Of a stretch of 64,000 nt of DNA, positions 31,064 to 34,906 are shown one piece after another. Position 1 is the first letter of the stretch, and the number at the start of each line of letters is the position of its first letter. The stretch is from Mesotoga prima MesG1.Ag.4.2. Lineage in GTDB: Bacteria > Thermotogota > Thermotogae > Petrotogales > Kosmotogaceae. A program made the position numbers and the translations under genes. The DNA lies in the NCBI RefSeq assembly GCF_000147715.2, contig NC_017934.1:1984001-2048000 (forward strand). Direction: 5' to 3'. The notes beneath the pieces are model-generated. The model was not told the DNA's origin. It made no database searches and was given only the letters and a program-made list of their open reading frames with translations.

Positions 31064-31387
31064 TTCTCTGTTCACCCTCCTTCCTCGCAAAACATCTACC
31101 CTTGAGAACCAAATATCGTTTTCTGTGTGACGATACTTCGAATTTCCTGTCGAAATCATTCAGTGATCACAAGTATAACTCATCCCAAATGGGTATTCCA
31201 GCTACTCCAGTCCGGCCCGTAAGATGCTCCACGATCTAGTATAGTATCCCTGCTTTCTTATCGGACCCTGAAGGAGGAAACCTGCTCTTCTAACCAGAAA
31301 AAATGTGGAGACCATCTCAGCCTGGAATTAGAGACAAAACGCAGAACAAGAATAAAGTTAGACTGCAATAGAATTCTAGGACTAGGT
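31064..31387. other. Intergenic region upstream of queD
   Basis: No gene is seen in these 324 bases. A possible minus-strand promoter for queD has TATACT near 31170. CCCAAATGGG near 31184 is a small palindrome beside it. I do not see the features of a preQ1 riboswitch. Confidence 0.4.
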
Positions 31388-31416
31388 TTGACATATATCT
31401 AACCATATGTTATGAT
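31388..31416 (+). promoter_or_regulatory. Consensus promoter of the plus-strand micro-gene
   Basis: TTGACA (31388-31393), a 17-base spacer and TATGAT (31411-31416). The spacer carries ATCTAAC, and ACATAT/ATATGT at 31391-31410 forms a dyad overlapping the -35 end and spacer, a plausible repressor site. The same hexamers, spacing and ATCTAAC recur at the minus-strand micro-gene. Confidence 0.82.
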
Positions 31417-31457
31417 CTCAGTGTAAGATATATATCGAACCGGTGGAGGAATTGATA

Positions 31458-31559
31458 ATGTCAAATTGCACTACAAAATCGATGAGAGAAGTTACGGAAC
31501 AGATAGAAAAGGCACGAGTAGAAATCTTGAAGTCCAGACCCTTCCTTACTTTTCAGTAG
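31458..31559 (+). CDS. Micro-protein of 33 residues, paralogue A
   Basis: An ATG at 31458 follows GGTGGAGGAATTGATA and opens a 33-codon frame ending TAG. The peptide is hydrophilic and helical in its first two thirds (REVTEQIEKAR) and ends in a short Pro/aromatic tail (SRPFLTFQ). It has one Cys at position 4, no membrane span and no signal peptide. A consensus promoter precedes and a strong terminator follows, so the whole unit is about 220 bases. The minus-strand unit at 31623-31891 encodes a similar peptide: both share an I-E/D-KAR motif at the same distance from an aromatic C-terminus. I do not recognise a family. It could be a signalling peptide, a peptide-product precursor, a toxin or a regulator. 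Confidence 0.65.
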   Translation: MSNCTTKSMREVTEQIEKARVEILKSRPFLTFQ

Positions 31560-31579
31560 GACTAGAGAAACCCCAAGAA

Positions 31580-31609
31580 AAAGAGAGAGCCTGAAGGTTC
31601 TCTCTTTTT
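31580..31609 (+). terminator. Terminator of micro-gene A
   Basis: AAAGAGAGAGCC (31580-31591) pairs with GGTTCTCTCTTT over 12 positions (one G-U) around TGAA, followed by a run of T. It lies 20 bases after the stop codon. Confidence 0.85.
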
Positions 31610-31622
31610 GAATGAAAGAAAC

Positions 31623-31648
31623 AAAAAAGGGTCTCTACCGAGAGACCC
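31623..31648 (-). terminator. Terminator of micro-gene B
   Basis: Read on the minus strand GGGTCTCT-CGGT-AGAGACCC is a perfect 8-base stem followed by six T. It lies 70 bases after the stop of the minus-strand micro-gene and 14 bases from the facing terminator, so the two units are insulated from each other. Confidence 0.88.
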
Positions 31649-31718
31649 GAAGTCATCTTTCTTTCCGTGGGGGAAAAGGGGGGTTGCTTGTATGTCGCGA
31701 TTCTACTGGTTTATTTCT

Positions 31719-31817
31719 TCAGAGTGCAAAAAAGTTTCCGTATCTTATAGAAGCCGATCTGGCTTTATCGATTTCCTTCTGGACATCTTTTCCGATTTTC
31801 AAAGATCCCTTCTTCAT
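31719..31817 (-). CDS. Micro-protein of 32 residues, paralogue B
   Basis: An ATG at 31817 follows AAAGGAGGAGTCGAT and opens a 32-codon frame ending TGA at 31719-31721. The peptide begins with a basic stretch (KKGSLKIGKD), continues as VQKEIDKAR and ends in an aromatic tail (RYGNFFAL). It resembles the 33-residue peptide on the other strand in the EI-D/E-KAR core and the Phe-containing end. It has its own consensus promoter and terminator. No family is recognised and no modification or export gene is adjacent. Confidence 0.65.
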   Translation of the reverse strand: MKKGSLKIGKDVQKEIDKARSASIRYGNFFAL

Positions 31818-31862
31818 ATCGACTCCTCCTTTTCGTCTGTTCGATTCATCTCTTACATTTTC

Positions 31863-31891
31863 ATCATATCACTACGTTAGATAGTTGTCAA
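31863..31891 (-). promoter_or_regulatory. Consensus promoter of the minus-strand micro-gene
   Basis: On the minus strand TTGACA (31886-31891), a 17-base spacer and TATGAT (31863-31868). ATCTAAC again sits in the spacer three bases after the -35. Downstream, TGTAAGA (31851-31857) and ATCGAAC (31839-31845) match leader motifs of the plus-strand unit at 31422-31428 and 31434-31440. Confidence 0.82.
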
Positions 31892-32118
31892 ACTATTATT
31901 GTTAACGCACAATAAACTTCTAACAATATATCGATTAAGCAGATTTACGATCTTGCACTTTCAAATGGATTTGATTCGACACCGAAGAATACTTGTACAT
32001 GTTCCGCATTTTAAGTACGTTATAGAGTTGCGTTGTTGATGAATTTCCCTGGTTCAAGGTTTCTCGAACCTTATCCATGCTATAATTCAATACAAGTCGA
32101 ACTTGAGAGGTGTATTCC

Positions 32119-33186
32119 TTGAATATAATCCCGGGATACGTTGAACTCGTAGAGATTTTGATGGCATGTGGTCTTGCTGACAGGAAGAGTTATTTCGACG
32201 CAGTTTCACATGATCTTGGATTCGATTTCGAACCGGGTCAAGAGCTAGGGGCATTTCTTCTTAAGATCAGAGAGAATGAGAACTGGTCGATAAAAGTTGT
32301 CGCTGACGTATTTTCGGAAATAAAGGACAGCGTCATCTTCTTTTGCGACTTTCCCGAAAGGCCGGGGGGGGAGATTCTCCTCGAGGACTCAATCGAAAGC
32401 CTTGCGAATAACTTCGAAGAGAAATCTAGATGTGTAGTAAACAGCATTCTTTCGAACAATCTTAATTTCTCTCAAGAGGAAGTAGATAAGATACTTGAAG
32501 GGGATCTAAGCATTGTGCCCGAAGCTGTAAACAAGGCCGAAGATCTCTCTGAAAACACGACATGGTTCATTACTCAGCTGATAAACTTTCCCAGGCAGTC
32601 GAAAGAGATCCTGCTCTTTGCTCTTAACGAAATGAAGAAGTACTACGAAGAATCCGGTCTGAGAAAAAAGAATCGCGATCAGATAGCCGAAAAACTAAAG
32701 CTCTTCGAAAATGATCAGTATAATCAAATTGCCGAGGGATTTCTTGATTTTTATGGCATTAAGGCAAGAGAAGACTTGCCGCTTCATCTCTTGTTTCAGA
32801 ATACACTGAAGTATTCAGGGCTTAAGTTTGCAAGCTCCTGCAATACCCAGCTGATAGTATTCAGCGAGCACTTCAAGCAGATTGAAGAGATTATGAATCC
32901 ATCGGTTACGGACAATACTCTCAGACTGTTTCTCAGAAATCTAGCCGATCAAACCAAGATGCAGATTTTGAAGTCGATATCCGAGGAACCAAAATACGTG
33001 GATGAGCTTGCAAAGCTCGTAGGGCTATCCAAAGCGACAGTATCCTACCACCTTTCGACTCTGTCCGAACTTGCCCTGGTTAAGAGCCGAAAAGATCACA
33101 GAAGAGTGTACTTCTCTTTGAATAAAGAGCGTCTCGAAAAAATTCTGAAAGGACTTGAGACGCTATACGATGAAGGTGAGAACTAA
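32119..33186 (+). CDS. Large regulator with C-terminal ArsR-type winged helix, copy 1
   Basis: The 355-residue protein has an N-terminal 265-residue domain that I do not recognise and a C-terminal winged helix (LRNLADQTKMQILKSI, YVDELAKLVGLSKATVSYHL, then the wing SRKDHRRVYFSL), as in ArsR-family repressors. The Cys metal site of classical ArsR is absent, so the N-terminal part is probably the sensor. TTG at 32119 is chosen because GAGAGGTG lies six bases upstream and because MNIIPGY then aligns with MEIITGY of the next gene. A TATAAT stands at 32081-32086 with a GGTTC/GAACC dyad just upstream (32051-32070). It neighbours the micro-gene pair. Confidence 0.72.
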   Translation: MNIIPGYVELVEILMACGLADRKSYFDAVSHDLGFDFEPGQELGAFLLKIRENENWSIKVVADVFSEIKDSVIFFCDFPERPGGEILLEDSIESLANNFEEKSRCVVNSILSNNLNFSQEEVDKILEGDLSIVPEAVNKAEDLSENTTWFITQLINFPRQSKEILLFALNEMKKYYEESGLRKKNRDQIAEKLKLFENDQYNQIAEGFLDFYGIKAREDLPLHLLFQNTLKYSGLKFASSCNTQLIVFSEHFKQIEEIMNPSVTDNTLRLFLRNLADQTKMQILKSISEEPKYVDELAKLVGLSKATVSYHLSTLSELALVKSRKDHRRVYFSLNKERLEKILKGLETLYDEGEN

Positions 33187-34253
33187 TGGAAATAATCACC
33201 GGCTATTTCGAAATATACGATCTGACAATGGCCATTCAGTTTTCGCTGAACACTGGTCCTGTTGAGAAGGTACTCAAGACGCTCGGGGTTGATTATGAAC
33301 CCTCTTCTCAGCTCTTGGAATTCAGGGAAACACTTCTTAAGGATGAAGAGTGGTCAACGAGGATGTATATAACCTTTATGAACGAACTGGGTGTTATGGC
33401 TCCCATCCTCTTCCCAATAAGGCAGAAGCTTCAAGACGGTATGCAGGTGACAATTGAGGAAAGCCTTAATGTAACGGAAGAGGGAATCGAGTTGATAAGA
33501 GACCGTTTCATCCAGGTATTTGCAGATAGAAGGCTCAAGATTTCCCATGATGAGCTGAATCGTATGATAAGCGAGGAACCGCAGAAGGTCTCAAAGGCCA
33601 TAGAGGCAATAGGCGGTGTAAGCCCGGATACTGTCTGGTTTGTGCACCAGCTACTCTTCTTTCCGAAGACGGCGATGGATTTCCTTTCCTCCAAGACGAT
33701 GAAAATCTTAAACTATTATGAAGGAAGCGGTTTAAGAGACCTCAACACTCGGCTCGTAAAAGGATACATAGAGAGTAGTTCGTCACAGAAGATCAAAGAC
33801 GCCTTCTCGAACTATCTCGACTATTACGATATCGTACTCGACGAGACGAAACCTGTATACATAACTCTTCAAAACTCGGTACCTCATACAAACTCTGGCC
33901 TAATGACATATCCGACCTTTCATCTTCTGATAATGGGTCTTGAAGAGGTTACCGAAGATTTCTCGGGCAGAATCCCGCAGGAAGTCAGGCTACGGAGTCT
34001 TCTTAAGGTGCTTTCCGACGAGACCAGATTCAAGATCCTGAAGAGACTCAGCAAGGAACCGGCTTTACAGAAGGACCTCGTTGAATTCACAGGCCTCGCC
34101 AAGTCTACCATTTCCTATCATATGGGACTTCTGTTCAAGTCATCGTTGATCGACGTTGATCCATTCAGCAGCATAATCTGTGTGAGAAAAGAGACTGTAC
34201 GGAGGGCAGCAGCCGATATCAGAAATCTTTTGAATTTGAGGGATATGAAATGA
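33186..34253 (+). CDS. Large regulator with C-terminal ArsR-type winged helix, copy 2
   Basis: This 355-residue paralogue of the preceding gene has the same length and plan: unknown N-terminal domain, then LKVLSDETRFKILKRLSKEP and LAKSTISYHMGLLFKSSLI as the recognition helix region. The two proteins are clearly homologous throughout (MEIITGYFEIYDL against MNIIPGYVELVEI; WFVHQLLFFPK against WFITQLINFPR), with considerable divergence, so they may form a heterodimer or sense different ligands. The wing differs from copy 1, suggesting different DNA targets. Its ATG overlaps the previous stop by one base. Confidence 0.7.
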   Translation: MEIITGYFEIYDLTMAIQFSLNTGPVEKVLKTLGVDYEPSSQLLEFRETLLKDEEWSTRMYITFMNELGVMAPILFPIRQKLQDGMQVTIEESLNVTEEGIELIRDRFIQVFADRRLKISHDELNRMISEEPQKVSKAIEAIGGVSPDTVWFVHQLLFFPKTAMDFLSSKTMKILNYYEGSGLRDLNTRLVKGYIESSSSQKIKDAFSNYLDYYDIVLDETKPVYITLQNSVPHTNSGLMTYPTFHLLIMGLEEVTEDFSGRIPQEVRLRSLLKVLSDETRFKILKRLSKEPALQKDLVEFTGLAKSTISYHMGLLFKSSLIDVDPFSSIICVRKETVRRAAADIRNLLNLRDMK

Positions 34254-34906
34254 TTAGAGCAGTAATATTCGATATGGATGGCGTGATAATCGATTCCGAA
34301 AAGCTCTATAGAAGGGCCTGTACCGAACTGGTTTCGGAGCTTGGTGGAAAGATAAGTGATGAGCTCTTCGAGAAGCAGATGGGTCTTAAAATGTCTCAAA
34401 CTCAGAGAGTAATTGTTCAGACTGCCGGTCTGGATATGGAGCCTGAGGAATTTGGCAGAAGGTACATGGAAAGGTATCTCGAACTTGCCAGAGAGACCGT
34501 GGTTCCAAATATCGGATTGATTGAGCTTCTTGATTTTCTTTATGGAAAGGTAGAACTGGCGATTGCATCGTCGACGGAGAAGTCCGCTGTTGAAGAGTTG
34601 ATGAAGAAAATAAACGTGCTCGAATACTTCTCGGTAATCGTCGGGGGAGATGAAGTTAGGGAATCTAAGCCATCGCCGATGATCTATCAAAGAGCTTCGC
34701 GGCTTTTGGGAATTGCCCCGGAGGATTGCATTGTTATTGAAGACTCGCCAAACGGCATTAGAAGCGGTTTCATGGCCGGAATGGAGGTTCTTGGGGTAAG
34801 GCACGAGGAGAACATAGACCTTGATTTGTCGCTTTCAAAACATGTGTTCGATAATCTGAACGGGGTTAGAGAGTATTTGGAAAAGAGGTTCGATAGTTTA
34901 ATTTAA
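34250..34906 (+). CDS. HAD-superfamily hydrolase (beta-phosphoglucomutase-like)
   Basis: The 218-residue enzyme has all four HAD motifs: nucleophile DMDGVIID near residue 8, the Thr/Ser motif in IASSTEK near 106, Lys in ESKPSPMIY near 142, and the acidic pair IEDSPNGI near 165. The helical cap and length match subfamily IA, which includes sugar-phosphate phosphatases and beta-phosphoglucomutase. The substrate is undetermined. Its start overlaps the second regulator in an ATGA junction, so it is in the same operon and could act on the ligand those regulators sense. Confidence 0.85.
   Translation: MIRAVIFDMDGVIIDSEKLYRRACTELVSELGGKISDELFEKQMGLKMSQTQRVIVQTAGLDMEPEEFGRRYMERYLELARETVVPNIGLIELLDFLYGKVELAIASSTEKSAVEELMKKINVLEYFSVIVGGDEVRESKPSPMIYQRASRLLGIAPEDCIVIEDSPNGIRSGFMAGMEVLGVRHEENIDLDLSLSKHVFDNLNGVREYLEKRFDSLI

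Follow-up and report, generated by a model that had tools for sequence, protein, structure and literature searches.

The closest described counterparts of the locus reported here are small RNAs that both pair with mRNAs and encode a peptide. VcdRP of Vibrio cholerae pairs through four cytosines with the translation initiation sites of sugar-transport mRNAs, and its 29-amino-acid peptide raises citrate synthase activity, as described in the accessible part of the source (PMC8672173). SgrS/SgrT, in the portion of the article at hand (PMC4021124), has a 5′ ORF (43 codons in SgrT), a conserved pairing region downstream and a terminator, and lies beside a regulator gene, sgrR, with a conserved intergenic region. 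A similar outline, with a putative pairing region, is found in a window of 64,000 nucleotides from Mesotoga prima MesG1.Ag.4.2 (NC_017934.1, positions 1,984,001 to 2,048,000), which holds two tiny genes, here called A (minus strand) and B (plus strand). Our literature search, from which subscription journals were mostly absent, turned up neither a description of this locus nor one of a C-rich RNA family in Thermotogota, and in our judgement the locus looks less like a peptide pair than like a regulated dual-function RNA with a younger copy.

A sequence-only reading of this DNA had described A and B as convergent paralogous transcription units that fill about 500 bases with nothing else in them. 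The elements of both units were recovered (Table 1): on the minus strand the promoter hexamers and their spacing, GGAGG, the 32-codon frame and the hairpin with its T-run, and on the plus strand the same set with a 33-codon frame, except that the hairpin 3′ of B was not among the terminators called by the scan and is visible by eye. Each promoter matches the sigma-70 consensus at 11 of 12 positions, with TG before the second hexamer, and the two are the best among seven promoter-like sites in 2.1 kb (3.5 ± 1.9 in shuffled sequence). For gene A, promoter and intrinsic terminator are both present as sequence signals of a predicted short transcript. The statement that the stretch is otherwise empty was wrong, since operator-like repeats are present and a C-rich element lies between the A stop codon and the terminator.

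Table 1. Features of the A/B locus, its regulator genes and stand-alone C-rich RNAs (window positions unless a contig or locus is named)
Feature	Position	Strand	Remarks
Gene B	31458..31559 with stop	+	33-codon ORF MSNCTTKSMREVTEQIEKARVEILKSRPFLTFQ; A paralogue found only in Mesotoga
Gene A	31817-31719 with stop	-	32-codon ORF MKKGSLKIGKDVQKEIDKARSASIRYGNFFAL; putative ancestral peptide gene
Promoter of gene B	31388..31416	+	TTGACA-17-TATGAT; promoter scan
Promoter of gene A	31863..31891	-	TTGACA-17-TATGAT; promoter scan
Shine-Dalgarno of gene B	31445..31449	+	GGAGG; read directly
Shine-Dalgarno of gene A	31825..31829	-	GGAGG; read directly
Intrinsic terminator of gene A	31629..31648	-	8 bp stem, then T6; scan
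Hairpin and T-run 3′ of gene B	~31580..31609	+	one G-U; terminator by eye
Dyad over B -35 box	31386..31403	+	GTTTGAC-ATAT-ATCTAAC; exact match to RTTNGAYNNNNRTCNAAC; candidate R1/R2 operator
18-bp dyad over A -35 box	31876..31893	-	candidate R1/R2 operator
Leader half-site of gene B	31434..31440	+	ATCGAAC; 37 bp from promoter half-site
Leader half-site of gene A	31839..31845	-	ATCGAAC; half-site spacing
Upstream half-site	31918..31924	+	TTCTAAC; 31 bp from dyad half-site; same spacing in 8/8 Mesotoga genomes
3′UTR of gene A	31619..31695	-	C-rich sRNA-like module and terminator; match to model of stand-alone C-rich RNAs
C-rich core	31664..31681	-	CCCCTTTTCCCCCACGGA; pattern in 12/103 genomes, one each, all at the A locus
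R1, 358 aa	32110..33186	+	C-terminal ArsR-type winged helix; N-terminal domain without family match
R2, 355 aa, R1 paralogue	33186..34253	+	start overlaps R1 stop codon
Stand-alone copy, genome G000	G000:C1:2298045-2297969 (L208 1046-970)	-	model R2
Further stand-alone copies	L151-L154, L156-L159, L165-L177, L198, L205, L209-L223

The predicted transcripts end at about 31609 (plus strand, B) and 31622 (minus strand, A), roughly 13 bases apart and without overlap, and antisense pairing between them was rejected on these grounds. A fixed convergent geometry was likewise rejected. The distance between the two promoters is 503 bases in the window, about 494 in G009, about 890 in G001 and 1,197 in G003. 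Extra DNA lies between B and A in G003 (L050 4151-4850) and G001 (L048 3981-4370); the two stretches are partly alike (about 76% over 157 bases), and this otherwise unremarkable sequence contains no convincing gene.

The frames had been said to be kept while their sequence drifted, and this view was upheld: silent changes are many and replacement changes per site far fewer in both genes. Pooled pS and pN were 0.589 and 0.160 for A (eight Mesotoga genomes) and 0.606 and 0.279 for B (six Mesotoga genomes). Between G000 and G001, gene A differs by 14.7 silent changes at 21.7 sites and by 5.3 replacement changes at 71.3 sites. Variable columns at the first, second and third codon positions number 11, 14 and 27 of 31 in A, and 17, 15 and 24 in B. 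For some B pairs dN/dS reached 0.58-0.79, by a simple method and with few or saturated sites, which suggests that B evolves faster. Codon evolution marks both frames as real genes whose peptides are under purifying selection. Start codons are GTG in A and B of G001 and in B of G003. Broken A frames beside a kept RNA structure, which the sequence-only reading would have taken as a sign of small RNAs, did not occur: the A frame is open in 13/13 carriers (eight Mesotoga genomes and five others). One might still regard A and B as chance ORFs beside chance promoter matches, as short ORFs are common (131 of at least 25 amino acids overlap an 11-kb stretch), but frame, promoter and position are kept in 13 genomes, and the pS/pN values of A and B refute this notion, to which we assign practically no weight.

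Little had been thought to be shared between the two genes beyond an I-D/E-KAR core and an aromatic tail of the peptides. This is too narrow, because promoter and leader are also alike. In the window 39 of 53 bases agree, against an average of 15.2 and a maximum of 26 in shuffled sequence; the six genomes in which both genes are intact show 37-46 matching bases. With a profile built from the 13 A peptides alone, B ranked second among 1844 stop-to-stop frames of the window (E = 0.004). Together these two results indicate that A and B are paralogues, promoter included. The excess of silent changes and the profile match support two expressed paralogous peptides as well as sequence can.

Neither peptide matched Pfam or NCBIfam at E ≤ 1. 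A peptides have negative GRAVY values throughout, and the 13 A and 2 B peptides examined range from -0.14 to -1.16, contain no 15-residue stretch above 0.89 and have at most one Cys; no hydrophobic segment, including a hydrophobic N-terminus, was found in any of them. Type I toxin-antitoxin systems consist of a hydrophobic membrane peptide and an overlapping antisense RNA. Here all 15 peptides are GRAVY-negative and the predicted transcripts stop before they meet, and assignment to this type was rejected. The broader proposal of a convergent toxin-antitoxin, a bacteriocin/RiPP precursor pair or secreted signal peptides fits small paired genes that each have their own promoter. It conflicts with the soluble character of the peptides, which does not suit a membrane toxin or signal peptide, with the gap between the transcript ends, with the dispensability of B and with the kept neighbours, which are the regulator genes R1 and R2; no modification or export gene occurs among the eight neighbouring window proteins searched. 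We consider this proposal very improbable. Signals, RiPP precursors and toxins, three of the four roles suggested by the sequence-only reading, thus found no support, and "small regulator" is the best of the four.

A profile of both genes, run against 103 Thermotogota genomes, detected A in 13, which all belong to a single family. Its matches at E ≤ 1.1e-10 number 19, of which 13 are A and 6 are B. All 19 are rows of the profile itself, and the informative part is the gap below them: the next match, at E = 9.7e-4, lies within a 662-amino-acid frame. B was found only in Mesotoga, where it is intact in six and decayed in two of the eight genomes with the locus; in G004 and G009 a copy with damaged promoter and frame occupies the B position. 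The profile search found no B in the five A carriers outside Mesotoga. The presence of A in 13 genomes, and the restriction of B to Mesotoga with decay in two of them, suggest that A is the ancestral gene and that B arose by duplication in Mesotoga and can be lost. B thus looks like a younger, dispensable copy of the A promoter and peptide.

Two tandem genes, R1 and R2, lie beside A in divergent orientation in every one of the 13 carriers. The tandem is present in 14 of the 17 genomes of the family, and 13 of these 14 have A; in the fourteenth, G006, the contig ends 16 bases past the R1 match, at the start of R1. Neither A nor R1-R2 was found in G008 (78% complete), G010 or G014. The carriers form one clade, and the co-occurrence of A with R1-R2 therefore represents a handful of events rather than 13. 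R1 and R2 are kept next to A in all carriers and a HAD hydrolase gene in many. On the other side, the QueD-like and CbiQ-like genes had no match in 3.7 and 4.3 kb of G002 and G007. A 228-amino-acid open frame (34118-34804, minus strand) runs antisense to the HAD hydrolase gene (34250-34906, plus strand); it is partly open in G002, G006, G007 and G012 and is probably a shadow of codon bias.

R1 and R2 are ArsR family regulators with a winged helix above the cut-off in both. R1 scored 46.7 bits against Pfam HTH_5 (cut-off 22) and 61.8 against NCBIfam NF033788 (cut-off 55). R2 scored 25.0 against HTH_5 (22) and 29.3 against HTH_20 (27), and remained under the NF033788 cut-off of 55 with 38.1. The R1 winged helix also matched solved folds, e.g. 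2oqg_C (Z 14.2, rmsd 1.7, 94 residues). Classical ArsR/SmtB members have about 100 residues, and the PDB matches to the R1 winged helix are mostly 98-127 residues long. The likeness to the ArsR/SmtB family (HTH_5, NF033788) lies in the C-terminal domains of R1 and R2, whereas both carry about 265 extra N-terminal residues, for which no Pfam match above cut-off was obtained. Outside the family, among the matches listed, the likeness to R1 and R2 lies almost wholly in the winged-helix part. Models of R1 had a mean pLDDT of 81.7 (whole protein) and 82.6 (N-domain), and the N-domain is mostly helical. A Foldseek search of the PDB with this domain (residues 1-264) gave no match at E ≤ 0.001, and in a second look with VIA-align no Z exceeded 3.2; the two results together neither show nor exclude a known fold. 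Peptide quorum sensing of the RRNPP type combines a pre-peptide bearing an export signal with a TPR receptor; Pfam found no TPR match in R1 or R2.

An 18-bp dyad, RTTNGAY-N4-RTCNAAC, whose two half-sites are 11 bases apart, covers the -35 box. All 13 carriers have an exact dyad at the A promoter, and all eight Mesotoga genomes have one where the B promoter, intact or decayed, lies. At the A promoter, consecutive RTCNAAC half-sites are separated by 37, 11 and 31 bases in 8/8 Mesotoga genomes, and gaps of 11 and 31 bases recur in three genomes of genus g3. In genus g3 an exact dyad also lies just before the R1 Shine-Dalgarno sequence (3/3 genomes), but no exact copy precedes the R1 genes of Mesotoga, G012 and G013. 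The co-inheritance of A with R1-R2 and the shape and position of the dyads lead us to infer that R1 and/or R2 bind them, probably as a local regulon. A wider regulon was rejected: outside the locus, the 17 family genomes contain 13 exact sites (15 strand counts) versus 20 strand counts for the reversed pattern, i.e. background. The dyad is still exact in G004 (L051 near 5111, minus strand) and G009 (L054 near 4174, plus strand), in which B has decayed, which hints that the second operator has a role apart from B. Near-identical dyad-like sites, ATTAGACCTTYGTCGAAC, occur outside the locus in four Mesotoga genomes (G001:C251:5107, G004:C47:5756, G008:C167:2273 and G009:C13:41425); these may lie within a conserved gene or represent a further target.

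Beyond its frame, gene A has a well-kept 3′ part. Averaged over the eight Mesotoga genomes, the C-rich core is 94.6% identical and the 3′UTR as a whole 83.2%; promoter and leader reach 81.7%, the coding sequence 74.4% and its third codon positions 57.5%. This indicates that A holds an RNA element conserved separately from its codons and better than them. The pattern CCCCTTTN{0,3}CCCCACGGA occurs once each in 12 of 103 genomes, always in the A 3′UTR, and its reverse occurs in none; the thirteenth carrier, G013, has a variant of the C-rich pattern. Selection on the RNA of A, the younger and dispensable status of B, and a setting with two ArsR-type regulators and shared dyads had all been missed in the sequence-only reading.

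In the window the core of the A 3′UTR is predicted to be mostly single-stranded, save a small hairpin. Folding analysis gave no support for a structure of this region (z = -0.79 for the 3′UTR by itself, +0.56 when the full transcript was folded). Nor did the small C-loop hairpin covary more than shuffled controls: of 500 shuffles, 164 reached the observed pairing and 131 the observed covariation. Near-complete complements of the C-rich element in its own genome (at most 3 mismatches in 17) amounted to four sites besides itself, compared with three for reversed controls, so that no strong target emerged.

A model of the 13 A 3′UTRs, built without structure, was also used for searching. Outside the A locus it found stand-alone RNAs in G012 (E = 4.6e-5), G011 (5.7e-4) and G010 (0.009), and gave 13 further outside matches with E 0.0045-0.096, of which that in G065 falls on a stand-alone copy. 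When one mismatch was allowed, the core CCTATCCCCCCTTGGATAG turned up in 19 of 103 genomes, and when up to three were allowed, in 53; as the reversed control reached 20 genomes at three mismatches, many of the weaker matches are due to chance. From core matches we built an alignment (A11) of 19 stand-alone copies, omitting L160 (chance-like), L170 and L172 (near duplicates of kept rows), the three-mismatch loci L148-L150, L155 and L161-L164, and matches without loci. None of the 19 copies in the resulting model (model R2, to be distinguished from the regulator) comes from Mesotoga or from an A gene. At E ≤ 0.1, model R2 found matches in 96 of the 103 genomes, 1-4 in each, and 84 genomes had a match at E ≤ 1e-5; 19 of the 84 had supplied the model, and the best match of G005 is its A locus.

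Model R2 recovered the A 3′UTR of the window (31695-31619) with E = 6.7e-7 in 174,666 bases. Of the 13 A loci, 12 were matched at E ≤ 0.054, 10 of them at E ≤ 0.0013, and the A gene of G013 was not matched. With profile matches in both directions, we infer shared descent of the A 3′UTR and the stand-alone RNAs. Convergence is possible, as the match rests partly on C-runs and a terminator; the B 3′UTRs, which contain little but a terminator, still reached E values of 0.032, 0.049 (the next match in the window) and 0.17 in three genomes, which counts toward convergence. These B matches would reflect no more than a degenerate remnant of the C-rich module, or the terminator alone.

Stand-alone matches at E ≤ 6e-7 were present in 8 of 10 Mesotoga genomes, four of which were read in sequence; G005 has a match at a contig start (3.8e-5) and G006 none. 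Among the stand-alone copies inspected by eye, an AT-rich, -10-like box precedes many, and a terminator-like hairpin follows nearly all. They form two groups, one with the core CCTATCCCCCCTTGGATAG and the other with a third C-run, ACCCCCCAC, resembling the CCCCCAC of A by eye. For 13 copies the next same-strand frame of at least 90 codons was inspected: it is not the same from lineage to lineage, and for 7 of the 13 the retrieved sequence contains no such frame. Such varied or absent downstream frames suggest free RNAs rather than leaders. The stand-alone copy lies directly upstream of a threonine aldolase-like gene in Mesotoga G000 and G007, and a second copy in G012 lies upstream of a MurA-like gene, both genes being named by eye (loci L208, L209 and L212). 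Rfam gave no match at threshold in the window and in six loci with stand-alone copies; at E ≤ 1 in five loci, there were two microRNA-family matches, both below threshold. For T. maritima 13 putative ncRNAs have been listed, their structure not being given in the accessible part of the paper (PMC3636130), and one of them may be a stand-alone copy. In a Kosmotoga olearia transcriptome paper, RNA isolation selected against RNA shorter than 200 nt and the text at hand does not contain the term ArsR; the available text of a paper on Aquificales ncRNAs does not mention a C-rich RNA.

It could be argued that the locus is a peptide-regulator circuit only, in which the A and B peptides, as small intracellular proteins, switch R1 and R2 by binding their N-terminal domains, and the C-rich 3′UTR controls A's own mRNA by pairing with its Shine-Dalgarno sequence. 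The co-inheritance of A with R1-R2, the shared dyads and the mostly helical R1 N-domain, for which Foldseek gave no PDB match at E ≤ 0.001, would all suit such a circuit. A precedent is the icaR mRNA of Staphylococcus aureus, whose 3′UTR has a C-rich motif, UCCCCUG, that pairs with its own Shine-Dalgarno sequence, as described in the accessible part of the report (PMC3868564). In A, however, pairing of the C-rich element with its own Shine-Dalgarno window was within 1.4 standard deviations of shuffled windows in 13/13 species, on the favourable side, and own-site pairing of the C-run was rejected as no better than shuffled. A circuit of peptides and regulators also leaves unexplained why a like C-rich module occurs in stand-alone RNAs across the phylum. 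We regard this explanation as doubtful.

Even less probable is that the C-rich 3′UTR acts without base-pairing, as a terminator-adjacent stabiliser or antitermination element, with only the peptides being of importance. The element directly precedes the terminator, and neither a target nor a supported fold was found for it, as one would expect under such a role. On the other hand, the C-rich core varies less than third codon positions do, the terminator-like hairpin at the end of B is not accompanied by such an element, and the stand-alone RNAs carry a like element beside varied neighbours.

Taken together, we favour as the probable explanation that A is a dual-function RNA under R1/R2 control, with a C-rich module akin to phylum-wide RNAs, and that B is mainly a peptide copy. 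The 5′ part of A would be translated into a conserved, soluble and basic peptide of 32-35 residues, as codon evolution suggests, and the 3′ part would provide the C-rich module and intrinsic terminator, resembling the stand-alone small RNAs of Thermotogota. The 18-bp dyads at both promoters would be occupied by R1 and R2, which in Kosmotoga-like genomes would also bind the dyad in their own leader. When A is released or activated by them, the C-runs of the RNA might pair with G-rich Shine-Dalgarno regions and block translation of target mRNAs, and the A peptide might act on a protein partner; both steps are drawn by analogy with SgrS/SgrT and VcdRP. B, as a Mesotoga duplicate of promoter and peptide with at most a C-rich trace, would be in the course of being lost in some species.

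A more far-reaching scheme, which we put forward only tentatively, joins three layers: R1/R2 control A, the A peptide feeds back on their N-terminal domains, and the C-rich module belongs to RNAs that control translation in Thermotogota by covering G-rich Shine-Dalgarno sites. It includes the equally tentative view that these RNAs form a multi-copy sRNA family, so far undescribed, which spans the phylum and of which the A 3′ module is the single branch that encodes a protein. Should the dual-function reading hold, Thermotogota would gain an RNA of this kind that has regulators of its own, and the C-rich RNAs matched in most of the 103 genomes would form a family of non-coding members and one coding branch. 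With B later split off as promoter and peptide with hardly any RNA, gain and loss of a coding role in RNAs could be studied within one clade. The set of operator, regulator and peptide would also be tractable for a regulator domain without a match found among solved structures.

The C-rich composition of the A module recalls RsaA, IsrR and LhrC, C-rich RNAs of other phyla that were compared with A by description only; RsaA, according to the portion of the literature at hand, pairs with a Shine-Dalgarno sequence. The resemblance to VcdRP extends, in the accessible part of its description, to a short ORF (29 amino acids in VcdRP), a conserved cytosine run as seed, a Rho-independent terminator and a promoter under a transcription factor (PMC8672173). 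VcdRP differs in having one run of four cytosines, compared with two longer C-runs in A, and in being controlled by the global regulator CRP instead of adjacent regulators; no sequence relation to A has been shown, and the available text describes no stand-alone RNA family for it (PMC8672173). Compared with SgrR-SgrS/SgrT, as far as the source at hand describes it, A lies beside a pair of regulator genes in tandem and has a C-rich element, and its peptide gene has been duplicated into a copy that lacks a clear RNA part. To our knowledge, SgrR is not an ArsR-type regulator. The parallels of A with VcdRP and SgrS/SgrT, drawn by analogy, would reflect a likeness of working and not kinship.
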